From contig NZ_JAHKQI010000002.1 of NCBI RefSeq assembly GCF_018860975.1, forward strand, positions 124,001 to 188,000: DNA of 64,000 nt. Direction: 5' to 3'. The position numbers were made by a program, and so were the translations under genes. Source of the stretch: Lentibacter algarum. Lineage in GTDB: Bacteria; Pseudomonadota; Alphaproteobacteria; Rhodobacterales; Rhodobacteraceae. The notes under the pieces are model-generated. The model saw only the letters and a list, made by a program, of their open reading frames with translations. It did no database searches and had not been told where the DNA came from. Below are positions 24,856 through 40,587 of this stretch, piece after piece; positions within the stretch are counted from its first letter, which is position 1, and each line of letters begins with the position of its first letter.

Positions 24856-25088
24856 GTTCTGCCTTAACTCCAGTCTCACCTTTTCAAGCTTCCAGCACCT
24901 ATTGACGAAACATCTGGCCTCGAGCCTAAGTATTGGCTGATTGGGTTTTTATATCGGCACTGCGGGTCAGTCGACCAAACAGGGCTGACAGGGCGGGTCG
25001 CATTGGCAGGAAGTGCTTCCCAAACCAACGTAAAGGCGCCAGCGCCCGAGGCAATGGAACCGTCCGGCTGCCGAACATGAAAGCGGCT

Positions 25089-25716: not shown

Positions 25717-26202
25717 TTATTCGGGCAGGATAACGGCGTCGATCACGTGGATGACCCCGTTGGACGCTGCAATGTCTGCCGTGACAACGTTGGCGCCGTT
25801 CACTGTAACGCCGCCCTCGGTCATGATAGTGACGTCACCACCCTGTGCTGTTTTCGCCATCATGTTGTTGCTCAAATCGCCGCTCATCACCTTGCCTGGT
25901 ACAACGTGATAGGTAAGGATGGCCGTCAATTTGTCCTTGTTCTCGGGCTTCAGCAGGTCCTCGACGGTTCCTGCAGGCAGCGCGGCAAAGGCTTCATCGG
26001 TTGGGGCGAACACGGTAAACGGACCCTCGCTCTTAAGCGTATCAACCAGACCGGCTGCCTGAACGGCAGCAACGAGTGTCCCGAAGGAACCGGCGTCGAT
26101 GGCGGTGTCTACGATGTCTTTCGAGTGGCCATCGGCGAATGCCGCGGTTGCTGAAAACATGGCAATGGCGGTCGATGTGGCGAGAAAAGTTCTGCGTAAC
26201 AT
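25717..26202 (-). CDS. secreted fasciclin (FAS1) domain protein
   Basis: 161-aa exported protein: signal peptide ([23 protein letters not shown]) followed by one FAS1 domain. FAS1 landmarks are [33 protein letters not shown] and the C-terminal [18 protein letters not shown] sits 4 nt before ATG 26202, favouring it over 26217. FAS1 proteins mediate adhesion or bind small lipophilic ligands. The promoter region carries a full TGATCC-N18-TAA site, placing this gene in the putative RpoE/ChrR stress regulon. Confidence 0.93.
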
Positions 26203-26244
26203 GGTATCTCCATTCATTTGTGACCCGCGTTGTGCGGAATATAA

Positions 26245-26274
26245 AGGTTACGGATCACTCACCTGATCGGATCA
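26245..26274 (-). promoter_or_regulatory. putative RpoE-type promoter of the fasciclin gene
   Basis: Reading on the - strand: TGATCC (26274-26269), 18-nt spacer, TAACCT (26250-26245). This matches the pattern before the ECF sigma gene at 34424. The inferred start of transcription, about 26238, leaves a leader of about 36 nt. Confidence 0.65.
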
Positions 26275-26443
26275 AAAATGGTGCGCTTTTTTTTGGGAAC
26301 AACCAAATCTCCTACGGCAAACGACGACAGCCATGCCGCTTTCGGTTCCGTTCTCATCATCTGACCGGACACCCTTGGCGGCCTGTGGTCATTTGGCTAT
26401 TCGATCGGTCAAAAAAAGGCACCGTCCGGCGATCGACAGGTGC

Positions 26444-27976
26444 TTATACAGTCTCGCCCGAGTCCAGCCGACCCAGCCAATCCGTCGCGTCACTTAATAC
26501 AGCTTTTCGTTGGCCCGCATCGCGCTTGTCCCAACCTCGGTAAATAACGGCCATTCTAGGGTTGTGTTGAAAGCGGTCCCGGTTGCGTTCGATGAAGTGC
26601 CAGTAGAGAAGATTGAAGGGGCAAGCCCGCGCGCCCGTCTTGGCTCTGACGTCGTAGTGGCAGCCGGTACAATAGTCTGACATCTTGGATATGTAGTTGC
26701 CTGATGAAACATATGGCTTGGATGCGACCACACCGCCGTCTGCGTACTGACTCATCCCAATGGTGTTGGGCGCTTCGACCCATTCGAACGCATCGACAAA
26801 AACGGAAAGATACCAATGGTGCACTGCCCCCGGGTCAAGGCCGGCAAGCAGGGCAAAGTTGCCCGTGATCATCAGTCTTTGGATGTGGTGGGCGTAGGCG
26901 TGATCTCGGGTCTGACCCACAACTTCGCTAACACACCGCATGTGCGTTTCGCCCCCCCAGAAAAGAGGAGGAAGCGAGCGACTGTGGTCCAAAGCATTTC
27001 GTGACGTGTAGTCCGGGCCTTCGAAGAAATAGATGCCCCGCACGTATTCGCGCCAGCCAATGATCTGCCTGATGAACCCTTCGACCGCATTGAGAGGCAC
27101 CGTACCTGCACGCCAGGCCTCTTCAGCCCGTAGGCAAACTTCCATTGGCTGAAGAAGGCCAATGTTGAGATATGGCGAGATGACCGCATGCCAAAGCCAA
27201 GGTTCACCTGCGACCATGGCATCCTGATAATCACCAAATCGCGCAAGAGTATGGGTTATGAAGTGGTCCAGAACCTCAAGAGCCTGTTCCCGATCCGTTG
27301 CGAACTTGAAGGGGTGCAATTCCCCAAAGTGCTCCGCGAAACGATCTTCGACGAGGTCAAGCACGTCGCCGACAACAGTGTCGGGTTGGAAACCAGGCGG
27401 TTTCGGAGGGCGGGCGTCTTCTGGTACAGGCTTGCGGTTCTGGCTGTCATAGTTCCACTTTCCCCCCGCCGGTGCGTTTCCCTCCATCAGCAGACCTGTC
27501 TTGCGCCGGACCTGCCGATAGAACCACTCCATTCGAAGTTCCTTGCGGCCCTCCGCCCAGTTGGCGAACTCCTTGGGCGAGGTGACAAAGCGGTCATCCG
27601 GTAACTGGCGTACGAAAAGCGGCAGATCGTTCAGTGCCGCTATCAACCTCCATTCTCCGGGGGTCGTGGCAATAATTTCATCGGCCTCAAACTCTGAGGC
27701 ATGGCGGACGATCTCACCCGGAATTGAACCCGTGTTGGCCTCATCATCGAGTTTGCTGTAAGCGACTGTCCAGCCATCTTCTCGAAGTGCCACTGCAAAT
27801 TTGCGCATCGCAGCCAGAACAAGCGCGATCTTTTGGGGATGATGCGAGACGTAAGTTGCCTCTGCCATGACCTCGGCCATTATGACCACGTCCCGCTCTT
27901 TTTCAGCTGTTCGCAGGGAAGAGATGTCAGCACATAGTTGGTCACCAAGCACCAAAATGAGACGCGGTTTCACCAT
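26444..27976 (-). CDS. FeS-type bacterial photolyase/cryptochrome (PhrB/CryB family)
   Basis: 510-aa DNA photolyase-like flavoprotein of the FeS-BCP group, known from Agrobacterium PhrB ((6-4) repair) and Rhodobacter CryB. The start is LILVLGDQLCAD, typical of this group. Four Cys placed to hold a 4Fe-4S cluster are Cys348, Cys436, Cys439 and Cys452, nearly the spacing of PhrB. MGMSQ-type and EAPNTIGMSQYADGG flavin-site segments are present. ATG 27976 overlaps the upstream SDR stop by 7 bp. It is the third gene of a DUF2256-SDR-photolyase unit. Confidence 0.94.
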   Translation of the reverse strand: MVKPRLILVLGDQLCADISSLRTAEKERDVVIMAEVMAEATYVSHHPQKIALVLAAMRKFAVALREDGWTVAYSKLDDEANTGSIPGEIVRHASEFEADEIIATTPGEWRLIAALNDLPLFVRQLPDDRFVTSPKEFANWAEGRKELRMEWFYRQVRRKTGLLMEGNAPAGGKWNYDSQNRKPVPEDARPPKPPGFQPDTVVGDVLDLVEDRFAEHFGELHPFKFATDREQALEVLDHFITHTLARFGDYQDAMVAGEPWLWHAVISPYLNIGLLQPMEVCLRAEEAWRAGTVPLNAVEGFIRQIIGWREYVRGIYFFEGPDYTSRNALDHSRSLPPLFWGGETHMRCVSEVVGQTRDHAYAHHIQRLMITGNFALLAGLDPGAVHHWYLSVFVDAFEWVEAPNTIGMSQYADGGVVASKPYVSSGNYISKMSDYCTGCHYDVRAKTGARACPFNLLYWHFIERNRDRFQHNPRMAVIYRGWDKRDAGQRKAVLSDATDWLGRLDSGETV

Positions 27977-28635
27977 GGGACGGGTTTCCCCGCCCAATCG
28001 AAAAAGCCACCATTCTGGGCCGAAGTCAGTTGATCAAGAACCTCAACAAGGTTCGTGGCTGCCTCACTCGCTGCCACCTTTGGATGCCCGGGATAGGCTT
28101 TGGTGAACGATGTCTCCACCGTACCCGGATGCAATGACACAACAACGGCATCTTTCCGCTTTCTCGCGATCTCGATGGCAGCCGTGCGCACAATCTGATT
28201 GGCCGCAGCCTTGGCCGCGCGATAGCTATACCAGCCCCCCAGGTGGTTATCGCCGATCGACCCGACCCGGGCAGTGAGAACACCCACCACGCAACGCGAA
28301 CCATGCGGCAAAAGCCGTGGCAGGTTTTTCAGCACCAACGCCGGGCCAATGGCATTCACCGCCATGACCCGTGCCATGTTTTCTGCGTCAACCTCGGCGA
28401 GAGACTTCTCGGGGCGTGCGCCCTCAGGGGCCAGAATGCCACTGGCTACCAAAACCGTTTCGAAGGGCCCACGGAGCTTGTTCATGGCATCCTCAACACT
28501 CGTGGGGTCGTTCATATCGAACCCGTCTGCGGTGCGCGAAAGCCGCGTCACTTCAGTGCCTTTTGTTGCAAGAACCGTGCATAGCGCCGTGCCGATCCCT
28601 CCGGAGGCCCCTATGACAAGTGCGCGGCGCGTCAT
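27970..28635 (-). CDS. SDR family oxidoreductase, C-factor-like, linked to photolyase
   Basis: 221-aa SDR with NAD(P) motif GASGGIG at residues 9-15 and active-site YSYRAAKAA. Overall it resembles the CsgA/C-factor-type SDRs that commonly neighbour photolyase genes. ATG 28635 overlaps the DUF2256 stop (ATGA) and its own stop overlaps the photolyase start, so the three genes are translationally coupled. Function unknown. The longer frame to 28746 would cover the DUF2256 gene in another frame and is not used. Confidence 0.9.
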
Positions 28636-28775
28636 CCTGCTTTTACCTTTCGCGACCTGCGACAGCGCTCGGAACAGTATCGCACATTGCTCCAGGATCT
28701 GGACCATTTTCGACGCCACGAGAACGGGCGGCAACACACCGGGCATGTTTTCGATGGCATCTGGCTTTTTCGCAC
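28632..28775 (-). CDS. DUF2256 microprotein (zinc-ribbon-like)
   Basis: 47-aa protein, GTG start, with the DUF2256 pattern: [16 protein letters not shown] followed by VRYCSERCR. The CPxC and CxxxC pairs look like a small zinc ribbon. GGGAGG lies 9 nt before GTG 28775; an internal ATG at 28760 is an alternative. The stop overlaps the SDR start by ATGA. DUF2256 proteins recur beside cryptochrome/photolyase genes, but their role is not known. It is missed if only ORFs above 60 codons are considered. Confidence 0.85.
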
Positions 28776-28838
28776 GGTCCTTAACCTCCCGAGACCTGAA
28801 TCCGCATGGTGATCAGGTCCGCATTCTCGATCATGTTT

Positions 28839-28868
28839 CTGATACGGTCCAGGCTCAGATTCAGATCA
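28839..28868 (-). promoter_or_regulatory. weak RpoE-type promoter candidate for the DUF2256-SDR-photolyase unit
   Basis: On the - strand: TGATCT (28868-28863), 18-nt spacer, TATCAG (28844-28839). Spacing equals the strong sites, but both boxes deviate by one or more bases. Confidence 0.35.
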
Positions 28869-28894
28869 CAAACGAATTCCAATCTGGGCTTTTT

Positions 28895-28924
28895 TGAACC
28901 ATCCACGGTTGGCCTTCGTATTTG
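28895..28924 (+). promoter_or_regulatory. weak RpoE-type promoter candidate for the CPD photolyase
   Basis: TGAACC (28895-28900), 18-nt spacer, TATTTG (28919-28924), one mismatch in the -35 box. The inferred transcription start near 28930 lies just before ATG 28952 and would exclude the earlier ATG at 28928. Confidence 0.4.
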
Positions 28925-28951
28925 GAAATGAAAGCAATAGGCCGCGTAGAG

Positions 28952-30364
28952 ATGAACGAATCAACACCGATAATCATCTGGTTTCGAAGAGATTTCAGGC
29001 TGGCTGATCACCCGGCGCTTGCTGAAGCAAGCAGAAGCGGGCGCCCCATTGTTCCAGTGGTCTTGCTGGACGAGGTTGTCGAAACCTTCGGTTCCGCCCC
29101 CAGATGGCGCCTGTCGCAAGCGATTGAACAATTCGAAGCTCGCCTGAAGCAAGTTGGATCCCGGCTGATCTTGCGTCGTGGCACCGCCGCAGACGAACTG
29201 CTCGCTCTGGCGCGTGAAACCGGAGCGGGGGACATCTGGTGGAGCCGGGCTTATGATCCCGAAGCAATCGCGCGTGACATCAAAGTCAAATCGGGTCTGA
29301 AAGACGCGGGTTTTGGGGCGAAAAGCTGGCCCGGCCACCTTCTGTTCGAACCCTGGGCAGTGAAGACCAAGCAGGGCGGTTTCTTCAAGATCTACAGCCC
29401 GATGTGGCGTGCCGTTAAAGATCTGGACGTCGCGCCGCCTGACCCTGCGCCACTGCGGCTTTTGGCACCTGAGAAGTGGCCGGACACTGATCGGCTTTCG
29501 GACTGGGCGCTCGACAAGAGTATGGATCGGGGGGCACAGGTCTTGGCCCGACATGCAAATGTTGGCGAACCCGCAGCCCATGAGCGCCTTGCTAATTTCC
29601 TGTGCGGGTCAATCGGTGACTACAAGGAGCGTCGCGACTACCTGGCGCAAAACGCGACCTCCCGCCTGTCTGAGAATTTGGCCTGGGGTGAGATCGGTCC
29701 GCGTACGGTCTGGCATGCTGGACTGCGTGCGCATCTGGAAGGTCAAAGAGGGGCAGAGCACTTCCTGAAAGAACTGGTATGGCGCGAATTTTCTTACCAT
29801 CTGGTTTTCCACACCCCCGAGATCACTCGTAAGAACTGGAGATCGGAATGGGACGCCTTCCCTTGGTCGGATCATGAGGACGAAGCAGTCTTGCGATGGA
29901 AGCAGGGGCGGACGGGTGTTCCCCTCGTTGATGCTGCCATGCGGGAGATGTATGTCACCGGCCACATGCATAATCGGGGCCGCATGATTGTTGGGTCCTT
30001 TCTTACCAAACACATGCTCAAGCATTGGCGAATTGGACAGAAGTGGTTCGAAGAGTGCCTGATTGATTGGGACCCTGCAGCGAACGCTATGGGATGGCAA
30101 TGGGTTGCGGGGAGCGGACCGGATGCTGCGCCCTATTTCCGCGTTTTCAACCCCGAAACACAGGCGCAAAAGTTCGATGCCGAGCAGAAGTACATTCAAA
30201 GATATGTGGCCGAGTGCGCACCGGACCCCGGCCCAGCGGCTCTGGCGTTTTTCGACGCCTGCCCGCGCGCTTGGGGGCTTTCGCCGGATGATGCTTATCC
30301 GACCCCGATTGTCGGGCTTGCTGAAGGGCGCAAAAGGGCTCTCGCAGCCTACGAGGCCCATTGA
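28952..30364 (+). CDS. phr: deoxyribodipyrimidine photolyase, class I (CPD)
   Basis: 470-aa light-dependent DNA repair enzyme. N-terminal antenna domain begins IIIWFRRDFRLADHPALAEA; the C-terminal FAD domain contains LVWREFSYHLVFHTPE, GRTGVPLVDAAMREMYVTG, MHNRGRMIVGSFLTKH and the terminal WQWVAGSGPDAAPYFRVFNP. These are the standard class I CPD photolyase blocks. ATG 28952 is preferred to 28928 because a promoter-like element overlaps the latter. Divergent from the FeS-photolyase unit; in Rhodobacter sphaeroides the photolyase phrA is an RpoE target. Confidence 0.94.
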   Translation: MNESTPIIIWFRRDFRLADHPALAEASRSGRPIVPVVLLDEVVETFGSAPRWRLSQAIEQFEARLKQVGSRLILRRGTAADELLALARETGAGDIWWSRAYDPEAIARDIKVKSGLKDAGFGAKSWPGHLLFEPWAVKTKQGGFFKIYSPMWRAVKDLDVAPPDPAPLRLLAPEKWPDTDRLSDWALDKSMDRGAQVLARHANVGEPAAHERLANFLCGSIGDYKERRDYLAQNATSRLSENLAWGEIGPRTVWHAGLRAHLEGQRGAEHFLKELVWREFSYHLVFHTPEITRKNWRSEWDAFPWSDHEDEAVLRWKQGRTGVPLVDAAMREMYVTGHMHNRGRMIVGSFLTKHMLKHWRIGQKWFEECLIDWDPAANAMGWQWVAGSGPDAAPYFRVFNPETQAQKFDAEQKYIQRYVAECAPDPGPAALAFFDACPRAWGLSPDDAYPTPIVGLAEGRKRALAAYEAH

Positions 30365-30422
30365 TGGTGGCGGTAGGCCAAGCGTCCAATTCGGTTTTCC
30401 GGTGAGAAACAGAGAGAGTATA

Positions 30423-30563
30423 ATGAAGAAATCAAGCGAAGGCGTCGTAGTCTTGCAGACAACATCGCACGGCAGCGTCGCAGATGGCGCGCACATTATC
30501 TACGAAGACGGGTCCTGCCCACTCTGGTTTGAGAGCATATCGAGAGGATTGGCTGTATGTTAA
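30423..30563 (+). pseudogene. short ORF resembling the start of a DUF393 (DCC) thiol oxidoreductase
   Basis: 46-codon ORF starting MKKSSEGVV and containing YEDGSCPLWFE. In DUF393/DCC proteins this region reads DGxCPxC and is followed by about 100 more residues. Here the second Cys is replaced and the frame ends at once, so it looks like a truncated remnant. It lies between phr and the CIA30 gene and overlaps the latter by 7 bp. It might still serve as a leader that couples CIA30 translation. Confidence 0.5.
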
Positions 30564-31027
30564 AACTAGAAACAAACTGGCAGTTTGTCGCTGATGCAGT
30601 CATGGGCGGAGTCTCACGCGGTCGAATTGCCAATCAGGTTGTGGATGGACGCAGCGCGACACGACTGACCGGGATGGTCTCGCTGGAAAACAACGGCGGC
30701 TTCATTCAGATGGCATCGGACCTGAAGCGGGACGGTTCAGGTTTGGATGCCAGCAACTGGGCCGGCATCGAGATTGATGTCTGCGGCAATGATGAGATTT
30801 ATGATCTTCGCATTAGAACAGATGATCTGGACCGGCCATGGCAATCCTTTCGCGCGCCATTCCATGCATCGGCGCAATGGACAACTGTGCGATTGCCCTT
30901 TCCGGACTTTGAACCTCACAAGACGGACAACGTTCTTGATCCTGCCAAGTTGCGTCGCATCGGCATCGTTGCAGTTGGCCGCGTTTTTCAAGCGGACGTC
31001 GCTGTTTCGGATGCCAGGCTATTTTGA
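30557..31027 (+). CDS. CIA30-family protein
   Basis: 156-aa protein of the CIA30 (complex I intermediate-associated protein 30) family, a jelly-roll carbohydrate-binding-like fold. Landmarks are WQFVADAVMGGVSRGRI, then GFIQMASDL and RIGIVAVGRVFQADV near the C-terminus. No signal peptide. Bacterial members are often found in photolyase/stress gene clusters. It follows phr on the same strand, so co-transcription is likely. Molecular role unknown. Confidence 0.85.
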   Translation: MLKLETNWQFVADAVMGGVSRGRIANQVVDGRSATRLTGMVSLENNGGFIQMASDLKRDGSGLDASNWAGIEIDVCGNDEIYDLRIRTDDLDRPWQSFRAPFHASAQWTTVRLPFPDFEPHKTDNVLDPAKLRRIGIVAVGRVFQADVAVSDARLF

Positions 31028-31175
31028 ACAACAATCGGCTTCTGTTTTAGGGTGTTCTCATTTGATCTCTGGATTGCGAAACCATGAACGCTTTTGAGGC
31101 ACTGGACCAAGCCGCTCGCGTGGCACTGGCGCGTTTGGCCAATGTAAGGTGTGACGCTTCTGCAGCCACGCGCCT

Positions 31176-31955
31176 TTATCGATGTTCAGCCGGTTTCAAC
31201 AGTCGTTCGATTTCTGACAATCGAACGATCACGTCCTCACGATAGGTGTCCGTCCGCTCGTCAGCTTCGACGTTATGTGCGTCTTGCATCGAATTGACGA
31301 CCAATCCAACTACGAGGTTTACCACAACAAAAGTCGTGATCAGAATGAAGGGCACGAAGAAGAGCCAGGCGTGGGGAAAGACATCCATGACCGGGCGTGC
31401 GATTCCCATGGACCAACTTTCCAGGGTCATGATCTGGAACAGAGAATAGGCCGAACCACCCAATGTCCCAAACCATTCTGGGAAAGCTGACCCAAACAGT
31501 TTGGTCGCGATGACCGAGCCGATGTAGAATACAAACCCCATTAAAAGAAAAACGGAACCCATCCCGGGTAAGGCGTTGATTAATCCTTCCACAACCCGAC
31601 GCAAGGTTGGCGCGGCCGAGACAACACGAAAGAGTCTGAGAACCCTAAGTGCACGTAGAACCGATAGGCCCTGTGTGACGGGAACAAGTGCAACCGCAAC
31701 GATCAGAAAGTCGAAGTTGTTCCATCCGCTGCGGAAAAATTGCCATCGGTTAACGTAAATCTTCGTGGCGAGTTCGACGACAAAAATGGCAAGGCATATC
31801 GCGTCCAGCGTCAGGATGATCGACCCGAATTTCGACATCGCTTCCTGCGAGGTTTCTACGCCCAGAACGATCGCGTTGAATAAGATCACAGCCAGGATGA
31901 AGTGCCGGAAAACCCGGTGTTCGATCAGATTCCGAAGGGGTTCACGGGCTCGCAC
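31176..31955 (-). CDS. voltage-gated sodium channel, BacNav (NaChBac) type
   Basis: 259-aa six-helix channel subunit that should form tetramers. S4 voltage sensor: VLRALRVLRLFRVV with Arg at 101, 104, 107 and 110. Selectivity filter TLESWSM at residues 177-183, identical to the NavAb/NavMs filter. S6 (FVVVNLVVGLVVNSMQDA) leads into a charged C-terminal helix (DVIVRLSEIERLL) suited to a coiled coil. GTG 31955 is chosen because AAAGGAGAAG lies upstream at about 9 nt. It lies 124 bp downstream of nhaA on the same strand, linking Na+ entry with Na+/H+ antiport. Confidence 0.94.
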   Translation of the reverse strand: MRAREPLRNLIEHRVFRHFILAVILFNAIVLGVETSQEAMSKFGSIILTLDAICLAIFVVELATKIYVNRWQFFRSGWNNFDFLIVAVALVPVTQGLSVLRALRVLRLFRVVSAAPTLRRVVEGLINALPGMGSVFLLMGFVFYIGSVIATKLFGSAFPEWFGTLGGSAYSLFQIMTLESWSMGIARPVMDVFPHAWLFFVPFILITTFVVVNLVVGLVVNSMQDAHNVEADERTDTYREDVIVRLSEIERLLKPAEHR

Positions 31956-32079
31956 TTTAGTCTTCTCCTTTGCCCCTGTTTTCCTGGCGCTCTTCTCTGC
32001 ACCGCGCCAATGCGCGGCCGGTTCAATTGGACTGCTCGTCAGAGCTGAGAGGGCTGGCCGAGGACGACCCTTCCCTGAT

Positions 32080-33273
32080 TCAGTCGGCTGGTACCGCTGA
32101 GGTGGCGGGCTTGGCGGCAGCCGTGCGCAACACAGCAAACCCCAGCAGGCCAGACAGCACAGAGCCGGTAACAACACCAAGCCGCACCGCATTCAAAGTG
32201 TCATCGCTGCTAAATGCGAGAGAGCCGATGAACAGGCTCATAGTGAAGCCAACGCCGGTCAAGCAGGCCACACCGTAGATATGGCGCCAGGTCACCCCTT
32301 CTGGTAGCTTGGCAAGCCCGCTTTTCACACCAACCCAGGTGACAATCAGAACGCCCGCCTGCTTGCCGAAAAACAGGCCCGCAATGATACCGAGAGTCAA
32401 AGGTTGCGTGAAATCGTCAACGGTTAGCCCGACAAGGCTGACCCCGGCATTGGCGAAGGCAAAGATCGGCAGGATCAAGAAGGCCACCCAAGGGTGCAGG
32501 CCATGTTCGATCCGGTGCAGCAGCGCCTTGTCCCCATTGTTTTCTTTCAATGGGATGGTCAGGGCGATCAGCACACCAGCCAGTGTCGCATGCACACCTG
32601 ATTTGAGCACAAACACCCACATGAACACGCCGACGATCAGGTAGGGTGCAATCCGCTGCACACCCATGCGGTTCAGTGTCACCGCAAGCGCAAAGCCCAA
32701 CATCGACAGCGTCAGCGCGTTGGTGGATAGATCAGACGTGTAAAACACCGCGATGATCACGATTGCGCCAAGGTCGTCGATGATCGCAACTGCCAAAAGG
32801 AAAACCTTGAGCGCCACCGGGACCCGGGAGCCAAGAAGCGCGAGAATGCCCAGCGCGAATGCAATATCGGTGGCGGTCGGAATGGCCCAGCCCCGCAGGT
32901 TTTCAGGGGTGCCCCAATTGAGCGCGGTAAAAACCACTCCGGGCACAATCATCCCGCCGATGGCGGCCAGAACAGGTAGCGCCGCCTTGTCGAAACTGGA
33001 CAACTCGCCGGTCAGAACTTCGCGTTTGATCTCCAGCCCCACCAGGAAAAAGAAAATCGCCATCAGGCCATCGTTGATCCAAAGAAGTGCCGGTTTCGAG
33101 ATTTCAAATGCGCCGACGCCCATCCGGACATTGGTGTTCAGAAAACCATCGTAAAGCGGCGCCAAAACGCTGTTTGCAGCCACCATGGCCATAAGGGCGA
33201 CCCCCATCAACACCAGCCCAGCACTGGCTTCGAGTTTCATGAAGGTTTGAATGCGCGACAAGGTCTTTTCCAC
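32080..33273 (-). CDS. nhaA: Na+/H+ antiporter NhaA
   Basis: 397-aa inner-membrane antiporter of usual NhaA length with about 12 helices. The ion-binding pair is in LAVAIIDDLGAIVIIAVFY (two Asp), and WAIPTATDIAFALGILALLGSRVP is the family hallmark. It expels Na+ in exchange for H+. The LysR-family gene at 33376 diverges from it with 102 bp between. It precedes the sodium channel gene on the same strand. Confidence 0.96.
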   Translation of the reverse strand: MEKTLSRIQTFMKLEASAGLVLMGVALMAMVAANSVLAPLYDGFLNTNVRMGVGAFEISKPALLWINDGLMAIFFFLVGLEIKREVLTGELSSFDKAALPVLAAIGGMIVPGVVFTALNWGTPENLRGWAIPTATDIAFALGILALLGSRVPVALKVFLLAVAIIDDLGAIVIIAVFYTSDLSTNALTLSMLGFALAVTLNRMGVQRIAPYLIVGVFMWVFVLKSGVHATLAGVLIALTIPLKENNGDKALLHRIEHGLHPWVAFLILPIFAFANAGVSLVGLTVDDFTQPLTLGIIAGLFFGKQAGVLIVTWVGVKSGLAKLPEGVTWRHIYGVACLTGVGFTMSLFIGSLAFSSDDTLNAVRLGVVTGSVLSGLLGFAVLRTAAAKPATSAVPAD

Positions 33274-33375
33274 GGATGGCTCCCATGCAGATACGGTGGT
33301 TTAATCTGATATTGGTTGTCCGCAACATATTTCAAATATATGCTTCTTATAATTAATATAGTTTGAGGCTATGAA

Positions 33376-34278
33376 ATGCGGCCGACCTTGCGCCAGTTGG
33401 AATACATTGTTGCGGTAGCTGAAACCGGGCGGATCGGTTTGGCTGCTGCGCAGCTTAACGTCAGTCAGCCAAGCCTGTCGGCCCAACTAACCGCGATCGA
33501 GGACGACCTGGGTGTATCCTTGTTCCAGCGCGGGCGGTCCGGTGCCAAACCAACACCCATCGGCGACGAGATCGTTCGACGTGCCCGGCAAATCCTGCAC
33601 GAGTTACAAGACCTGCGCGCCACAGCGCAGGGAGATGGCATTTTCCAGGGGCGGCTGCGCCTGGGCGTATTGCCATCAATCGGGCCCTACCTTCTGCCCG
33701 GGGTCGTCAGGCGTTTGCACAGAGAACACCCCGGTTTGCGTCTGGTGGTCCGCGAAGAAAGCACCCGCGACCTTGATGAAGGGCTGCGTAGCGGCCGGCT
33801 CGACATGATCATTTCCACCCCCGAAGACCACCCAGGGGCCCTGCACACGCACCTCTTTACGGAACGGTTTTGGATTGCCATGGCCTTGGATCATCCGCTT
33901 GTAAACAACACAGAGCCGGTGGATCTTGGGGCCCTGAAGGGGCAAACTTTCCTGACGCTGGGCCCGAAGTATCGGCTGTCACATATCGTCGCGAGTCTCG
34001 CCGCCCGGGCTGGTGGACGTGTGTCTGACGAATATGAAGGGACAAGCCTTGATGCGATCCGCCTGATGGCGGCGGGCGGCGCTGGAATCGCAGTCCTTCC
34101 CAGCATCTACGCCGCGACTGAGGCCCGCCGCGGCACGGATGTCAGCTTGCGTGCGCTGAAAGATGCAGCTGCAATCCGTGAAATTGCGCTTGTCCAGCCG
34201 CTGTTGCCAGAACCCAGGTCTGGCAGTGATCTGCTGGTCGAGATTCTTTGCAGCGAAGCGAACATTATAAATGATTGA
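33376..34278 (+). CDS. LysR-family transcriptional regulator
   Basis: 300-aa LysR regulator: HTH near residues 18-37 (IGLAAAQLNVSQPSLSAQLT) and a periplasmic-binding-like effector domain from about 90. The layout resembles the OxyR branch, but the redox Cys pair is missing: the only clear Cys is near the C-terminus (EILCSEAN). GAGG lies 8 nt before the ATG. Divergence from nhaA suggests it controls the antiporter and perhaps the Na+ channel. Confidence 0.92.
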   Translation: MRPTLRQLEYIVAVAETGRIGLAAAQLNVSQPSLSAQLTAIEDDLGVSLFQRGRSGAKPTPIGDEIVRRARQILHELQDLRATAQGDGIFQGRLRLGVLPSIGPYLLPGVVRRLHREHPGLRLVVREESTRDLDEGLRSGRLDMIISTPEDHPGALHTHLFTERFWIAMALDHPLVNNTEPVDLGALKGQTFLTLGPKYRLSHIVASLAARAGGRVSDEYEGTSLDAIRLMAAGGAGIAVLPSIYAATEARRGTDVSLRALKDAAAIREIALVQPLLPEPRSGSDLLVEILCSEANIIND

Positions 34279-34280
34279 TG

Positions 34281-34299
34281 CCAAAACCCGCAGTTTTGG
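34281..34299 (+). terminator. hairpin terminator after the LysR gene
   Basis: CCAAAAC and GTTTTGG form a 7-bp stem with a 5-nt loop, starting two bases after the stop codon and followed by GTTT. Moderate strength. Confidence 0.5.
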
Positions 34300-34423
34300 G
34301 TTTCCATCCGAGAGATTGGCCCGGATCAAACGTGGGGGTGTAAGTGAGCCCTTAGATTATTCGAACTGCTTGCGTAGTCCCTTAATCATCTGGGTCGTTG
34401 CCCGATCAAAATCCAAAAAAATG

Positions 34424-34453
34424 TGATCCGCATCTCACAGACCTCCGTAAAGA
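34424..34453 (+). promoter_or_regulatory. putative autoregulated RpoE-type promoter of the ECF sigma gene
   Basis: TGATCC (34424-34429), 18-nt spacer, TAAAGA (34448-34453). This resembles the RpoE-type promoter pattern I recall for Rhodobacter and recurs at 26245, 37542 and 37602. The inferred start of transcription falls at about 34459, almost on the chosen ATG, so the mRNA may be leaderless or the real start may be the ATG at 34506. Confidence 0.7.
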
Positions 34454-34457
34454 GAGT

Positions 34458-35099
34458 ATGTTGACACAAACTCTTGATAACCCGCGCAACGCTCGTCATG
34501 CTCCTATGGCCCGCCGTTACGAAAGAACGCCTGTGTCGCAAACCGAAACCGAAACCGAATTATCGGAGCAAACTCACTGGATGATTGCCGTTCGCGATAA
34601 CCGTGACCGCAATGCGTTTGCGGCGCTGTTCGATCATTTTGCTCCACGGCTCAAAGGATTCATCATCCGCTCGGGGGCGTCGGCGCATCAGGCGGAAGAA
34701 ATCGTTCAGGACGTGATGCTGACGATCTGGCGCAAGGCGGCGATGTTTGATCCGCACCGCGCCCAAGTGTCGGCCTGGATTTATCAAATTGCTCGCAACC
34801 GCCAGATCGACATCGCGCGCAAAGAAAACCGCCCCATGCCGGAAGAGCTGAAAGAAGAACCGGGCATGGAACCCGATGCCAGCCAAATCCTTGCCATCGA
34901 ACAGGAGGCCGGACAGTTGAAGCAAGCCCTTGCCACGCTTAAACCCGAGCAGCGCGAGATAGTTGAAAAGGCCTATCTGGGCGAGTTGACCCATCAGGAG
35001 ATCAGCGCCCAGACCGGCCTGCCACTTGGAACCATTAAATCACGTATCCGGCTCGGCCTGGAACGTCTGAGACACGAGTTGAAGGACCTCAAGCAATGA
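34458..35099 (+). CDS. rpoE: ECF sigma factor, RpoE of the ChrR group
   Basis: 213-aa sigma-70 family ECF factor. Region 2: RNAFAALFDHFAPRLKGFI to EEIVQDVMLTIWRKAAMFD; region 4: REIVEKAYLGELTHQEISAQ and GTIKSRIRLGLERLRHEL. The immediately overlapping chrR gene (ATGA) makes it the RpoE that answers singlet oxygen. The first 30-40 residues are not conserved and are Thr/Glu-rich, so the start is uncertain (34458 or 34506). A sigma-dependent promoter just upstream implies autoregulation. Confidence 0.94.
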   Translation: MLTQTLDNPRNARHAPMARRYERTPVSQTETETELSEQTHWMIAVRDNRDRNAFAALFDHFAPRLKGFIIRSGASAHQAEEIVQDVMLTIWRKAAMFDPHRAQVSAWIYQIARNRQIDIARKENRPMPEELKEEPGMEPDASQILAIEQEAGQLKQALATLKPEQREIVEKAYLGELTHQEISAQTGLPLGTIKSRIRLGLERLRHELKDLKQ

Positions 35100-35731
35100 G
35101 TGCCATAACCCACCATATCCCTGATGCCATGCTGGCCGCCTATGCGGCGGGAAATCTCCCGCACGCCTTCGCCGTCGCCGTGGCCAGCCATGTGTCGCTT
35201 TGCGCTGAGTGCCGTGTGGCCCTAGAAGCGCATCAAGCGGTTGGCGGAGCCGTTCTGGAAGACACCGGTGCCGTTGCGGTTTCATCGTCTCTCAAGGACA
35301 ATATTCTGGCCCAACTCGATGCGCCATTCACGCCGGAACCGGTTTATGAGCGCAACGGGATTTTCCCCGGGCCGGTTATGGAGGCGATGAACGGCCGTGC
35401 ACCACGTTGGAAAAAGCTGGGCATGGGCGTGCGACAGGACATCCTGTCAGCGGATGCCAATGGTTCGGTGCGCCTGCTTTACATTCCGCCGCGACAGGCG
35501 GTTCCGGATCACAGTCATAACGGATTGGAGCTGACCCTCGTTCTGCAGGGCAGTTTTAGCGACGAGACAGGGCGGTTCGGGGTTGGTGATCTGGAGATCG
35601 CTGATGAGAATTTGGAGCATACCCCGGTTGCCGATCCTGGTGAGGCCTGCATTTGTCTGGCGGCTACGGACGCGCGGTTGAGGTTTCGCGCACTTGTGCC
35701 CAGGCTGCTACAGCCCTTGTTTCGAATTTAG
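35096..35731 (+). CDS. chrR: ChrR-type zinc anti-sigma factor with cupin domain
   Basis: 211-aa cytosolic anti-sigma factor. The N-terminal anti-sigma domain has the zinc ligands His6, His32, Cys36 and Cys39 (SHVSLCAEC), nearly the spacing of Rhodobacter sphaeroides ChrR. The C-terminal cupin has a second metal site: His139, His141, Glu145 and His175. ChrR holds RpoE inactive and releases it when singlet oxygen is sensed. Coupled to the sigma gene by a 4-bp overlap and followed by a strong terminator. Confidence 0.95.
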   Translation: MSAITHHIPDAMLAAYAAGNLPHAFAVAVASHVSLCAECRVALEAHQAVGGAVLEDTGAVAVSSSLKDNILAQLDAPFTPEPVYERNGIFPGPVMEAMNGRAPRWKKLGMGVRQDILSADANGSVRLLYIPPRQAVPDHSHNGLELTLVLQGSFSDETGRFGVGDLEIADENLEHTPVADPGEACICLAATDARLRFRALVPRLLQPLFRI

Positions 35732-35760
35732 AGATACCCCTCAAAGAATGAACGTCATGG

Positions 35761-35789
35761 AACCACCAGTTTTCTGGTGGTTTCTTTTT
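35761..35789 (+). terminator. rho-independent terminator after rpoE-chrR
   Basis: AACCACCAG and CTGGTGGTT form a 9-bp perfect stem with a TTTT loop, followed by a T-rich tract. It lies 30 bp after the chrR stop. Confidence 0.85.
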
Positions 35790-36041
35790 GTTTTCGACGA
35801 ATTACAGCACGGAGCCGTGGGGATGTGATCCGCTGAGGGCGCAGCGGGGCATGCCTTTGGCCAAATTCATTTTAGGAGCCGATCGGCCAAAGCCCCCAAG
35901 CATGTAAAACATACGCTAGATTGTCGGCAGGTCGGACAGGTGCGTGCAAACTGCTACCCCGGTGACATTTACTGCAGACCAAGGCAACGTCAGGCGCAGC
36001 TGAAATGGGCGCACGACCCCTTCATCTGAGCCGGTTTTGGG
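35790..36041. other. intergenic gap between chrR terminator and SDR gene
   Basis: No gene recognised. A TGATCC at 35826 is followed after 18 nt by CATGCC, so it does not complete the promoter pattern and leads to no gene. A small inverted repeat (CCGCTG/CAGCGG) overlaps it. Confidence 0.4.
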
Positions 36042-36767
36042 TTACTTTCTTCGGTAAACGACAATGTCAGGCAGGTAGTCCAAGCTGCGGATCAGCCATG
36101 AGAACGGAGCGGGGAAATCAGTGCGAAAACGCCGTTTTCCCATCGCTCGGAGCACCTTTTGCGCGGCATCTTCGGGTGTCATCAACATTGGCATGCGAAA
36201 ACTGTTTTTCTGGGTCAGGCGGGTCTTGATAAAACCTGGATTTACCAGCCGGACCACGACGCCCGTACCATTGAGATCAAACCGCATGGTTTCCGCCAGG
36301 CTGACCAACGCAGCCTTGCTGGCCCCATAACCGATCGCGGCGGGCAGGCCATGGTATCCGGCCAATGACCCGACCAGTGTGATATCGCCGTGTCCCTGTT
36401 CGACAAATTGCGGCACAACCTCGCCCAGAACGCGGAGCGCTCCGGTGAAATTGACATCCGCCATGGCGAGAACAGTGTCGCTATCCCAATCGGTCGCGCG
36501 CATCGGTTCGTAGGATCCAACATTGTAGATCACACCGTGCAGGTCACCAATGGAGGCTGCGGCCCGACGCACTGCGTCAATGTCCGTGACATCCAGGGCG
36601 AGTACGCGCGCACCGGATATCTCGGTACTCAGAGAGTCAAGCCGATCCGCATTGCGCGCAGACAGGACCAAGCGAGCGCCTTTAGCATTCAATTGTTTTG
36701 CCAGGGCACGCCCCAAGCCTTCGCTAGCGCCAATCAGCCAGTAGGTTTTGCCGGAGAAGTCAGTCAT
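36042..36767 (-). CDS. SDR family oxidoreductase of the RpoE lipid module
   Basis: 241-aa SDR with GASEGLG at residues 12-18 and active-site YGASKAA; near the end RRFRTDFPAPFSWLIRSLDYLP suggests membrane association. ATG 36767 overlaps the DUF1365 stop by 4 bp; longer frames read through that gene. A short-chain dehydrogenase is part of the RpoE regulon cluster in Rhodobacter sphaeroides, and the substrate may be a lipid. The reaction itself is unknown. Confidence 0.9.
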   Translation of the reverse strand: MTDFSGKTYWLIGASEGLGRALAKQLNAKGARLVLSARNADRLDSLSTEISGARVLALDVTDIDAVRRAAASIGDLHGVIYNVGSYEPMRATDWDSDTVLAMADVNFTGALRVLGEVVPQFVEQGHGDITLVGSLAGYHGLPAAIGYGASKAALVSLAETMRFDLNGTGVVVRLVNPGFIKTRLTQKNSFRMPMLMTPEDAAQKVLRAMGKRRFRTDFPAPFSWLIRSLDYLPDIVVYRRK

Positions 36768-37537
36768 TTGCCGGCCCCGCGAAGATTGTGGCTCTCGGTC
36801 ATTGGGTGTTCTGGTGCGGGCTGTTTTTTCAAAAAGGGCGCGCGTTTCAGGTAGAGAATGGCGGCCTGCCAATGGATCAGGGCTAGCACCCGAACCGCCC
36901 CCAGCGGGCGGCGGACTGCGGCCCATAGCAGAGACGCATTGGTCGCAGGGCGACGTTTGCCCGACAACGTGGCCAGAACGCCCTGGTCTCCATTTTCAAA
37001 TGCAATGCGGATGTCGACTTCTGTCTCGCTCACGCCGAAATTGAACCGGTAGTGACCCGCCACCTTTTGAAAGGGCGACACATGCATCAGTTTCTCGGCG
37101 ATCAGCGTGTCTTTCCTTTTGATCGGGCTGAAATCATCATGCGCGCAGAAATAGCAATGACGCTGGCCGAAGGTGCTGTTGACCTCGGCGACAAAGGCCC
37201 GTGGCGTGCCGTCCACCAATGCGATCCAGAAGCTGACCGGATTAAAATGGAACCACAGGAAACTGGGTTGGGTTAGCAGCAAAAGCTGGGCGCCTTCTGT
37301 TTCAAACCCTCGGGTTTGCAGAACCTCCTTAAACCACGCCACGCCATGGCCTTCACCCCGGATGCCACCGTGGCGATGGTCCCAAAGGGACCAAAGGTTG
37401 AAGCGGTTGCGCGACATCACCCAAGGTGTCGAACCCCCCAGGTCGCTCAGCACGTAGTCCACACCGTAACTGAACGCATTTTTCAGCGCGCCGCGCCGGG
37501 CGTGGTGGGTTTGGGCCTGTATATGTTCCAACATCAT
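36764..37537 (-). CDS. DUF1365 family protein
   Basis: 257-aa protein of the DUF1365 family: HIQAQTHHARRGALKNAFSYGVDYVL at the N-terminus (this stretch spans residues 4-29), LLTQPSFLWFHFNPVSFWIAL and FAVEVNSTFGQRH-like FVAEVNSTFGQRHCYF in the middle. Members almost always sit with an FAD oxidoreductase and a CFA-synthase-like enzyme, as here (divergently, 123 bp away). The activity is unknown, presumably in modification of unsaturated fatty acyl chains. Its promoter site ends only a few bases before the ATG, so it may be translated from a leaderless mRNA. Confidence 0.88.
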   Translation of the reverse strand: MMLEHIQAQTHHARRGALKNAFSYGVDYVLSDLGGSTPWVMSRNRFNLWSLWDHRHGGIRGEGHGVAWFKEVLQTRGFETEGAQLLLLTQPSFLWFHFNPVSFWIALVDGTPRAFVAEVNSTFGQRHCYFCAHDDFSPIKRKDTLIAEKLMHVSPFQKVAGHYRFNFGVSETEVDIRIAFENGDQGVLATLSGKRRPATNASLLWAAVRRPLGAVRVLALIHWQAAILYLKRAPFLKKQPAPEHPMTESHNLRGAGK

Positions 37538-37541
37538 ACAA

Positions 37542-37571
37542 ATATTACGCGCGCGCGAGTGCCTTGGATCA
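37542..37571 (-). promoter_or_regulatory. putative RpoE-type promoter, leftward
   Basis: On the - strand: TGATCC (37571-37566), 18-nt spacer of mostly CG repeats, TAATAT (37547-37542). It would drive DUF1365 and the SDR, with the transcript starting at or next to the ATG at 37537 or 37534. Confidence 0.65.
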
Positions 37572-37601
37572 CTTCGCGCAGAAATTTTTCAAACAAATAA
37601 A

Positions 37602-37631
37602 TGATCCGAACCTTCGGGCCCTGCGTAAACC
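37602..37631 (+). promoter_or_regulatory. putative RpoE-type promoter, rightward
   Basis: TGATCC (37602-37607), 18-nt spacer, TAAACC (37626-37631). It would drive the FAD oxidoreductase/CFA-synthase operon, giving a leader of about 22 nt that contains GACGAGG before ATG 37661. Confidence 0.68.
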
Positions 37632-37660: not shown

Positions 37661-39004
37661 ATGTTCGATCAAACTCAAGGCCCACGCAAAAAGATCGCCA
37701 TTGTCGGAGGCGGCATCTCGGGACTTTCGGCAGCCTATTATCTGTCGCCCTATCACGATGTCACTCTATTCGAGGCCGCCCCCAGGTTGGGCGGGCATGC
37801 GCGCACGGTTATGGCAGGGAAAAACGGGGACCAACCCGTCGATACCGGCTTCATTGTGTTCAATTACGTGACCTATCCCTACCTGACTCGGTTGTTTCGT
37901 GACCTCGACGTGCCCGTCATCAAAAGCGAGATGAGCTTTGGTGCCAGCATCAACGATGGCTGGTTGGAATATGGCCTGTCCGGCATGGGTGCGATTACCG
38001 CTCAAAAACGCAATCTTCTGCGCCCGCAGTTTTACAAGATGATCGCCGACATCATCCGTTACGGCAAGCACGCCGAAGCCGCCGCAAAAGATGACAACAA
38101 AACCATTGGCGAACTGGTCGACGAACTTGGTCTGGGCGACTGGTTTCGCAACAACTACCTGATGCCGATGTGCGGCGCGATCTGGTCAACACCGGTGGAT
38201 GACGTGGACCAGTTCCCGGCGAAATCTCTGGTGCAGTTCTTTCGCAACCATGCGCTTCTGGCAGGGGCGGGCCAGCATCAATGGTGGACGGTCAAGGGCG
38301 GCAGCATCGAATATGTTCGCCGACTTGAAGCCGCATTGATCGCGCGCGGCTGTTCCATTCACACCAACACGCCGGTCCATCGTGCACAGCGTGATGCATT
38401 TGAGGTTCGAATTGACGCGGGCGATGGCCTGTCCGTGGAGTTTGATGAGATGATCCTGGCCTGCCATTCGGATCAGGCGCTTCGCATTCTGGGCGAGGAC
38501 GCCAGCGATGCCGAAAGCAATGCTCTTGGCAGTATCCGTTACCAGCCAAACACCGCCGTTTTGCATTCCGATCCGGGTCAGATGCCCAAGCGGCGCGCCT
38601 GTTGGTCAAGCTGGGCCTACCGTTCGCAGGGTGGAGATATCGGGGTCACTTACTGGATGAACAAGCTTCAAAATATCCCGGAAGATGATCCGCTGTTTGT
38701 CACCCTGAACCCGTCAACCGAAATTCCGCAGGAAGCGGTGTATGACAAGGTTGAGTTCGCCCACCCGGTGTTCGATCAGGCTGCGCTGCGGGCACAGCAG
38801 GACATCCGCCAGATGCAGGGCCGCAATCGGACGTGGTTTGCCGGCGCCTGGAACCGTCACGGATTTCACGAAGATGGCATCGCGAGTGCCGTGCGCATCG
38901 TGCGTGCACTTAACGAACGTCACCAAGCTAAAGGAATTGACCATGCGCTTCACCAACAAAGCCCTGAAATCGAACTTCCTGTCGACCTGCGAGCGTCTGC
39001 GTGA
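37661..39004 (+). CDS. FAD-dependent amine-oxidase-like oxidoreductase of the RpoE lipid module
   Basis: 447-aa flavoprotein with the dinucleotide motif VGGGISGLSAAYYLS near residue 10, then EAAPRLGGHART and DTGFIVFNYVTYPYL; the C-terminal FAD contact is TWFAGAWNRHGFHEDGIASAVRI. Similar to the flavin amine oxidase/desaturase-like protein in the Rhodobacter RpoE cluster that is tied to methylated and furan fatty acids (Ufa proteins). GAGG sits 5 nt before ATG 37661. Its 3' end overlaps the CFA-synthase gene by 62 bp. Likely acts on methylated acyl chains; not proven. Confidence 0.9.
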   Translation: MFDQTQGPRKKIAIVGGGISGLSAAYYLSPYHDVTLFEAAPRLGGHARTVMAGKNGDQPVDTGFIVFNYVTYPYLTRLFRDLDVPVIKSEMSFGASINDGWLEYGLSGMGAITAQKRNLLRPQFYKMIADIIRYGKHAEAAAKDDNKTIGELVDELGLGDWFRNNYLMPMCGAIWSTPVDDVDQFPAKSLVQFFRNHALLAGAGQHQWWTVKGGSIEYVRRLEAALIARGCSIHTNTPVHRAQRDAFEVRIDAGDGLSVEFDEMILACHSDQALRILGEDASDAESNALGSIRYQPNTAVLHSDPGQMPKRRACWSSWAYRSQGGDIGVTYWMNKLQNIPEDDPLFVTLNPSTEIPQEAVYDKVEFAHPVFDQAALRAQQDIRQMQGRNRTWFAGAWNRHGFHEDGIASAVRIVRALNERHQAKGIDHALHQQSPEIELPVDLRASA

Positions 39005-40100
39005 CGGGCAGTTGACCCTGCGCACGCCCGAGGGTGAACGCTATCATTTTGGTCATTCCGGCCCCGAGGCGGAAATGGTCATTCGCGATTGGGGGGCCGT
39101 GTCTGCCTTGGCGGCGCATGGACAGGTGGGCCTGGGCGAAACCTATGTTCAGGGCCTGTGGGACACGCCGTCGGTTGAAGGGCTGATGTCGGTCGCGATG
39201 AACAATCGCGATCATCTGGGCGCTTACGATCAGGCCAGCCCGTTCAACAAGGCCAAGTTTCGGCTGGTTGATACTGTCATGCGGGCCAATTCGCGCCGTG
39301 GATCACGCAAAAATATCCGCTCGCACTATGATGTCGGCAATGAGTTTTACGGGCTTTGGCTGGACGAAGGGATGACCTATTCGTCGGGGCTGTTCGAACA
39401 GGCCGACGATGATCTGACGCGCGCGCAATCGCGCAAGAATGAACGCGTGTTGTCGCGACTGGGTCACGGAGAGCGTACGCTTGAAATCGGCTGTGGCTGG
39501 GGCGGGTTTGCCGAACACGCGAGCTCCGAAGGCCGCGACGTGACCGGCGTGACTATCTCGCGCAATCAACACAGCTATGCTGAATGCCGCCTTGATGGGC
39601 GCGCTGACATTCAATTGTGCGATTACCGCGACATCAACGGGCAATATGACAACATCGTATCGATCGAAATGATCGAGGCGGTGGGCGCCCGTTACTGGCC
39701 AAGCTATTTCGCGACACTCAAGCGAAACCTGGCTGAAGGAGGGCGTGTTCTGTTGCAGGCGATCACCGTCAAGGACAACTTTTTCGACACCTATAAGAGC
39801 TCATCCGATTACATCCGCCAATATGTCTTTCCCGGCGGCATGCTGTTGTCGGACAGCGTGATCGAACATCAGGCCAAAGGGGCCGGGTTTGAGGTCCGCG
39901 ACAATTTCGCTTTCGGTCAGGATTACGCCCGAACCTGCCGGATCTGGGCGGAACGTCTGAGCGCTCAAAAACGTCGGATTTCCGAGATGGGATATAGCGA
40001 CGGCTTCTTCCGCAACTGGCAATACTACCTCGAGATTTGCGCCGCCTCCTTTGCCGTCGGCCACACCAATGTTGTGCAGGTTGAGCTGGCTCATGCGTAG
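38943..40100 (+). CDS. CFA-synthase-like SAM methyltransferase
   Basis: 385-aa member of the cyclopropane-fatty-acyl-phospholipid synthase family. The SAM site is RTLEIGCGWGGFAEHASSEG near residue 180; IEMIEAVGARYWPSYF is the conserved post-II block. In Rhodobacter sphaeroides CFA-like enzymes under RpoE add a methyl group to cis-vaccenoyl chains en route to furan fatty acids; this protein may act similarly instead of making cyclopropanes. AAGGA lies 7 nt before ATG 38943, which is inside the upstream gene. Confidence 0.92.
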   Translation: MRFTNKALKSNFLSTCERLRDGQLTLRTPEGERYHFGHSGPEAEMVIRDWGAVSALAAHGQVGLGETYVQGLWDTPSVEGLMSVAMNNRDHLGAYDQASPFNKAKFRLVDTVMRANSRRGSRKNIRSHYDVGNEFYGLWLDEGMTYSSGLFEQADDDLTRAQSRKNERVLSRLGHGERTLEIGCGWGGFAEHASSEGRDVTGVTISRNQHSYAECRLDGRADIQLCDYRDINGQYDNIVSIEMIEAVGARYWPSYFATLKRNLAEGGRVLLQAITVKDNFFDTYKSSSDYIRQYVFPGGMLLSDSVIEHQAKGAGFEVRDNFAFGQDYARTCRIWAERLSAQKRRISEMGYSDGFFRNWQYYLEICAASFAVGHTNVVQVELAHA

Positions 40101-40587
40101 ACTTTTGCTGATAGCCGCTACACTTCTTGTTCCGTTAAGCGCGCAGGCCTCAACCGTCAAATCCGCCCTGCCCGGTGCCGAGTTGCGTGGTGTTGCGACC
40201 TTTCGATATGTCGGCTTTCCTCTCTATGAAGCACGGCTTTTCACCCAATCCGGCGCACCACTGGACTGGAACAAGGATTTCGGGCTCGAACTGAAATACA
40301 TGCGCAAGCTGACCGGATATGACCTTGTCGAGGGGACAATGCGCGAACTCAACCGGACCGGGCCTGCCTTGCCGGTGCGGGATCAACTGCAGATATGCTT
40401 CCGGGATGTCCGCAAGGGCGACCGCTATGTCGCCGTATCCAAGGGGCAAAACCAGATCGGGTTCTGGCTTAACGGGACCCGCGTCTGCACCCTGCGCCAC
40501 CCGCAGATCAAAACCCGCTTCATGGCGATTTTCCTGGGCGACAACTCGCGCTCGAAATACTTCACCCGGGAGCTGAAGGGCCAGTGA
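40093..40587 (+). CDS. secreted chalcone-isomerase-like protein
   Basis: 164-aa exported protein: signal peptide MRRLLLIAATLLVPLSAQA, then a chalcone-isomerase-like fold with GVATFRYVGFPLYEARLF and KYMRKLTGYDLVEGTM. Bacterial relatives lack flavonoid activity, and some relatives bind fatty acids, which would fit the lipid module. Starts 8 bp before the CFA-like gene ends and overlaps the following transporter start. Confidence 0.85.
   Translation: MRRLLLIAATLLVPLSAQASTVKSALPGAELRGVATFRYVGFPLYEARLFTQSGAPLDWNKDFGLELKYMRKLTGYDLVEGTMRELNRTGPALPVRDQLQICFRDVRKGDRYVAVSKGQNQIGFWLNGTRVCTLRHPQIKTRFMAIFLGDNSRSKYFTRELKGQ

Follow-up and report, generated by a model that had tools for sequence, protein, structure and literature searches.

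The rpoE-chrR pair and its promoter sites

The window analysed here is a stretch of 64,000 nucleotides (nt) from Lentibacter algarum (contig NZ_JAHKQI010000002.1, positions 124,001 to 188,000; coordinates below count from its first nucleotide). At its centre are an extracytoplasmic function (ECF) sigma factor gene, rpoE, and directly behind it the gene of an anti-sigma factor, chrR. Two divergent units of furan-fatty-acid genes lie downstream of the pair, and a fasciclin-domain gene (fas1) and a photolyase gene (phr) lie at lower coordinates. The locus is very probably an RpoE-ChrR (ECF11) singlet-oxygen regulon in which the rpoE mRNA, and in the window also the mRNA of the lipid gene ufaO, is predicted to be leaderless.

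The rpoE gene (34458..35099, + strand) encodes 213 amino acids when read from the ATG at the predicted transcription start (+1). The product has Pfam sigma-70 regions 2 and 4, and its best match in the PDB is the RpoE of 2q1z (E 4.7e-60). The stop codon of rpoE overlaps the start codon of chrR (35096..35731, +) in the junction sequence ATGA. ChrR carries a cupin domain and scores 205.5 bits against TIGR02451 (cut-off 124.5) and above the cut-off of Cupin_7; it falls below the cut-off of zf-HC2 (19.7 vs 22.2) and of the equivalog NF051881. The zinc ligands described for ChrR of R. sphaeroides are His6, His31, Cys35 and Cys38, and His141, His143, Glu147 and His177. Matched by spacing, their counterparts in the window protein are H6, H32, C36, C39, H139, H141, E145 and H175; across 21 aligned ChrR sequences, which do not include that of R. 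sphaeroides, seven of these eight positions are invariant and C39 is nearly so. The window thus combines sigma regions 2 and 4, an adjoining ChrR-type anti-sigma factor with its zinc ligands, and TGATCC-N16-CGTA before rpoE, as expected of an RpoE-ChrR (ECF11) system.

A sequence-only reading of this DNA had reported four exact TGATCC-N18-TAA boxes, each placed before a start codon. The count is borne out, with 4 occurrences against 0.13 expected and none of 100 shuffles reaching 4; the two plus-strand positions are right, and the two minus-strand ones were 3 nt off (26248 and 37545 are correct). All four sites share the longer form TGATCC-N16-CGTAA. The rpoE promoter spans 34424..34450 (+), with its expected +1 at the A of the ATG at 34458, and the ufaO promoter spans 37545..37571 (-), with its expected +1 at the A of the ATG at 37537 (-). 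The third site, 37602..37628 (+), serves ufaD, an amine oxidase gene whose ATG at 37661 stands 32 nt beyond the -10 box and has a GAGGA ribosome site. The fourth, 26248..26274 (-), precedes the fas1 ATG at 26202 (-) and is also supported by sites before homologues of that gene.

That the four sites are a product of chance or base composition can be set aside almost entirely. Lower down the scale the numbers would allow it: sites matching at least 9 of 11 positions with the GTA core number 7 in the window, and 20 Markov controls average 4.2 and reach up to 8, so there is no excess by number. At 11 of 11 the window has 4 sites against 0.05 in the same controls, so that expectations of 0.05-0.13 face four exact sites that are also conserved before homologues, which already refutes chance for the exact form. 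In the whole genome (3.65 Mb), TGATCCN{15,16}CGTAA occurs six times and its reversed form not at all. The sequence-only reading had made itself dependent on the motif not occurring at random frequency elsewhere, and for the exact motif it does not, because four of the six matches are the window sites and the other two (one N16, one N15) lie inside open reading frames (ORFs). The point does not carry over to relaxed motifs. TGATCYN{15,17}CGTAW is much less specific (29 genome matches, 1 for the reversed control), and 22 of 28 classified matches overlap a mechanically called ORF of at least 120 amino acids, two of these 22 being the fas1 and rpoE sites themselves. Four other loose matches (L008, L014, L016 and L027) lie outside such ORFs; these four were not followed, and the loose-pattern scan of the genome gave no further confident regulon member.

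A contig scan with the alignment of 21 ChrR sequences gave 588 confirmed candidates, of which the best 80 form the set of named loci and are therefore the nearest relatives; their organisms are Rhodobacteraceae. The rpoE and chrR genes adjoin in 80/80 of them, ufaO and ufaD are nearby in 78, an SDR-family gene in 75 and ufaM in 70. The ufaO/ufaD genes occur in two layouts, either downstream of chrR, as in the window, or upstream of rpoE and divergent from it, as in R. sphaeroides. Five sigma genes are found in the genome by PF04542, and a second ECF gene adjoins another FAS1 gene on contig C7, so the sites might in principle answer to an ECF factor other than RpoE. This is very improbable: the sites fit the published RpoE-ChrR consensus, one of them stands before rpoE itself, and all 80 named loci have a site there. 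The consensus is given as TGATCC(N15)GCGTA in R. sphaeroides (PMC5036791), as TGATCC with CGTATT or CGTAAT in Shewanella (PMC4336711) and as TGATCC-N16-CGTA in P. syringae (PMC5507510). Sigma gene, ChrR, promoter and furan-fatty-acid genes all agree with the published RpoE-ChrR regulon, and the earlier suggestion of a ChrR regulon is supported.

The start codon of rpoE

In the window the ATG of rpoE stands 7 nt past the CGTAA box. In the 80 named loci an in-frame ATG lies at this distance (N7) in 77 and at N8 in 3. A larger pool of 140 loci from three fetches was reduced to 136 promoters by removing identical ones; here the ATG is at N7 in 119 and at N8 in 9, that is, 7-8 nt after the -10 box in 128/136. 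A few rpoE promoters (L149, L245) have TGAACC or a 15-nt spacer. Every one of the 119 N7 promoters has C or T immediately before the ATG. In the 106 distinct N7 promoters, which had been pre-selected for a site scoring at least 9 and an ATG, CGTA is identical throughout and position -1 is without exception a pyrimidine (C or T), while -7 to -2 show little conservation. The mRNA of rpoE is predicted to be leaderless because an ATG 7-8 nt after the -10 box coincides with the expected start of the RNA.

That expectation can be calibrated on promoters with ordinary leaders. At the offset matching the rpoE ATG, ufaD promoters have a purine in 88%, and an A in 57/76. The S. meliloti RpoE9 promoter, which ends in CGTC, is said to have its mapped start 9 nt further downstream; in rpoE promoters of the N7 type the A of the ATG comes ninth after CGTA, one base from the S. 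meliloti spacing if 9 nt means nine bases in between. Translation signals also differ: a 4-mer resembling a Shine-Dalgarno (SD) site precedes the start in 1/128 rpoE genes, against 65/75 for ufaD and 15/15 for fas1. The rpoE AUG thus occupies the predicted +1 and has no SD site.

The geometry recurs at ufaO. The window ATG of this gene is likewise 7 nt past its CGTAA box, and of 33 loci with the window-like layout 21 have the ATG at N7, 10 at N10 and one each at N8 and N9, so in such loci the ufaO mRNA would be leaderless or nearly so. Across genomes, the exact composite TGATCC-N16-CGTA-N7-Y-ATG is present in 267 of 394 genomes of the family and in 43 of 381 genomes of the class that fall outside the family; neither table contains a match of the reversed control. 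Thirty sampled family loci hold 31 matches, 26 at rpoE and 3 at ufaO, in frame, and 2 at neither. Among the matches listed from the 394 genomes, none exceeds 77% identity to R. sphaeroides RpoE. Outside the family the composite pattern also precedes photolyase genes (L352 by match, L358 by inspection) and genes of apparently secreted proteins (L342, L343 and L360, by inspection).

Several observations weigh against this reading of the regulon and of its rpoE start, or limit its reach. One locus of the pool has no rpoE match, and 8/136 promoters do not fit (two at N10, two without a site scoring 9, four other). The exact composite pattern is absent from 127/394 family genomes, a figure in which genomes lacking rpoE-chrR and those with variant promoters are unsorted, and beyond the family rpoE accounts for only 8 of 28 sampled matches, the rest being other genes or chance-like. 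The codon-position bias just behind the ATG is weak, with codons 2-11 giving 560/583/717 against 565/617/574 for the promoter spacer (the pairs are non-independent). A score-9 site before an SDR-DPRP gene of the window is not conserved among 30 loci. Lastly, some later in-frame start codon is available in 128/128 rpoE genes, and 63/128 have a later in-frame ATG, GTG or TTG with an SD-like 4-mer before it, which leaves room for an internal start. The regulon could then be as described and RpoE translated from an internal SD start, the AUG next to the promoter being a leftover or giving a minor long form. The alignment of the R. sphaeroides RpoE chain in 2q1z (184 amino acids) with the window RpoE begins only at residue 33 of the latter, and the R. 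sphaeroides protein may therefore start lower down.

An internal start is nevertheless unlikely. The in-frame AUG is kept at 7-8 nt in those 128 of 136 promoters despite a drifted spacer. Of 128 loci, 126 have stops in frame +1 and 104 in frame +2 between the ATG and region 2; frame 0 has none, but its being open was part of how the loci were selected. The second codon has T in the middle position, encoding a hydrophobic residue, in 96/106. Initiation at the promoter-adjoining AUG remains the preferred explanation. Among the open-licence papers searched, none on a leaderless rpoE/ChrR was found, which is weak evidence of absence.

Predicted target genes in the window

The first furan-fatty-acid unit consists of the ufaO-like DUF1365 gene (36764..37537, -; PF07103, E 5.7e-61, and its place in the conserved cluster), predicted to be leaderless, and an SDR-family oxidoreductase gene downstream of it (36042..36773, -; RSP1087-like by position). 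The second begins with the ufaD-like FAD amine oxidase gene (37661..39004, +; PF01593, E 2.3e-23 for the ORF from 37643, and cluster position). It continues with a ufaM-like methyltransferase gene of the cyclopropane-synthase family (38943..40100, + strand, start approximate; PF02353, E 2.2e-75 for the ORF from 38742) and a GPH/MFS transporter gene (40584..41813, +; PF13347 and cluster position; RSP1089-like by position). The names follow gene order rather than comparison with the R. sphaeroides sequences, which would make the DUF1365 gene ufaO (RSP1090), the amine oxidase gene ufaD (RSP1091) and the methyltransferase gene ufaM (PMC7380195). Homologues of the core regulon members ufaD, ufaO and ufaM are thus present with RpoE promoters.

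The fas1 gene (25717..26202, -) encodes a single FAS1/fasciclin domain (PF02469, E 5.8e-42 for the ORF from 26217) behind an N-terminal signal peptide recognised by inspection only. Its homologues were followed in 30 loci, taken from the 35 of 60 searched genomes that have a match. Sites scoring at least 9/11 with N16 are present in 12/30 loci, the window included, and in 0/30 when the same stretches are read backwards. The sequence-only reading had held that a secreted FAS1 protein is here also in the regulon. Membership is supported by the conserved RpoE promoter; it is not new, as a fasciclin member is already published. Table 1 of the R. sphaeroides RpoE regulon contains RSP_1409, Beta-Ig-H3/fasciclin, with log2 values of 2.8 and 4.5 on singlet oxygen (PMC7074977), and an Azospirillum brasilense fasciclin is cited as under RpoE-ChrR (PMC10949492).

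Among the 80 named loci fas1 occurs in 16, in 15 of them directly behind chrR, and 12 of these 15 have a site. The chrR-linked FAS1 proteins share 47-55% identity with the window FAS1, against 80% for the one from the remaining locus (L161), where fas1 is not behind chrR; the chrR-linked lineage is absent from the window. On these identities FAS1 seems to have entered the RpoE regulon more than once. The window FAS1 is 87% identical to that of a genome of another genus (G012) and at most 62% identical to those within its own genus. The window ChrR is 89-90% identical to the proteins of Ruegeria pomeroyi SZCCDBG043 and two Aliiroseovarius, 72-82% to those of other Aliiroseovarius and 61-62% to those of four same-genus genomes, chrR being present in 4 of 5 of the latter. 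These percent identities, taken without a tree, suggest horizontal exchange.

The 5' leaders of fas1 have a suggestive tendency to form hairpins, with mean z-scores of -0.90 (12 leaders) and -0.79 (11 leaders) against +0.20 for 71 ufaD leaders. In most of the fas1 leaders examined, the stretch from the expected +1 to the ribosome site contains short stem-loops, which differ in sequence (window 26203-26240 (-); also L030-L059 and L136-L215); the z-scores are modest. On contig C7 of the same genome, at about 859.0-861.5 kb (L124 1537-4033), the second ECF sigma gene stands in a row with a gene of a 239-amino-acid anti-sigma-like protein, a further FAS1 gene and a gene resembling msrB, the anti-sigma and MsrB names resting on inspection; sigma factor and FAS1 are thus linked a second time in this genome. 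Downstream of the fas1 region, a Stealth-family (CR1/CR2) gene occupies 23839-24879 (-).

The photolyase gene phr (28952..30364, +; PF03441, PF00875) is preceded by a weaker RpoE-type site, TGAACC-N16-CGTAT, at 28895..28921 (+), which matches 9 of 11 positions. It is probably a further regulon member, because 14/30 homologues' loci, with that of the window among them, have a site scoring at least 9, against 0/30 reversed. Several relatives' fas1 and phr sites use TGAACC, ACATCC or TGATCT. A neighbouring site before the SDR-DPRP gene, TGATCT-N16-CGTAT at 28842-28868 (-), was rejected as unsupported (at least 9 in 3/30 loci, its own included, vs 1/30 reversed). A photolyase-related/SDR pair is listed under RpoE2 in Shewanella (PMC4336711), and by eye a 17-codon reading frame starts 7 nt past the rejected site.

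The proposed circuit and known systems

As in R. sphaeroides, ChrR would hold RpoE inactive until singlet oxygen appears and would then be lost, leaving the freed RpoE-RNA polymerase to initiate at promoters of the form TGATCC-N16-CGTA. The window units expected to be driven in this way are rpoE-chrR, ufaO-SDR, ufaD-ufaM-transporter, fas1 and probably phr. The autoregulated rpoE mRNA, predicted to have neither leader nor SD site, would be read by leaderless initiation, and the window ufaO would start in the same way; the ATGA overlap may allow chrR to be translated by coupling to rpoE. The positions of the sites and the rpoE geometry among relatives are direct readings of the sequences, from which we infer the transcription start at the A of the rpoE AUG, the leaderless translation, the coupling of chrR and the induction by singlet oxygen.

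A stronger proposal, offered tentatively and with less than even confidence, is that across the family, and also in some other alphaproteobacteria, the rpoE AUG is fused to the RpoE promoter and efficient translation is thereby limited to RNA that RpoE itself has started. Read-through RNA or RNA from a foreign promoter would carry the AUG without a ribosome site and would be mostly silent, and the leaderless start would make the singlet-oxygen switch self-licensing and free it from control through a 5' leader.

The regulon itself is a known circuit confirmed in another genome and is ordinary in kind, because the promoter and the fasciclin link are both published; what is added is the conservation of the fas1 and phr sites and the geometry of the rpoE start across the family. 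The leaderless rpoE matters more. If it is true, RpoE gene models should start at the +1 AUG family-wide, control through a 5' leader would be excluded and RpoE output would depend on leaderless translation, an unusual way to run such a switch.

The closest known system is RpoE-ChrR (ECF11) of R. sphaeroides, which is alike in its sigma and anti-sigma types, its promoter (PMC5036791), its ufaD, ufaO and ufaM genes (PMC7380195) and the presence of a photolyase and of fasciclin gene RSP_1409 among the regulon members (PMC7074977). There the RSP1091-1087 operon lies upstream of rpoE, whereas in the window chrR is followed by two divergent units, ufaO-SDR and ufaD-ufaM-transporter, and each of them has a site. 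The window also has no fas1 behind chrR, and its site is carried by a different FAS1 lineage from the chrR-linked ones. RSP_1409/Fdp and the Azospirillum brasilense fasciclin are likewise FAS1-domain genes linked to RpoE, a likeness at the level of the domain (PMC7074977, PMC10949492). Shewanella RpoE2-ChrR and Pseudomonas syringae PSPTO_1043 share the promoter consensus but differ in their target sets (PMC4336711, PMC5507510); in Shewanella, transcription is described as starting at an A downstream of the boxes. For the start of rpoE the parallel is with the leaderless mRNAs of Sinorhizobium meliloti, of which 171 start sites have been mapped and in which AUG is the first transcribed base. 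Those starts were mapped by RNA-seq, whereas here the start is predicted by comparison and concerns one regulator gene across a family.

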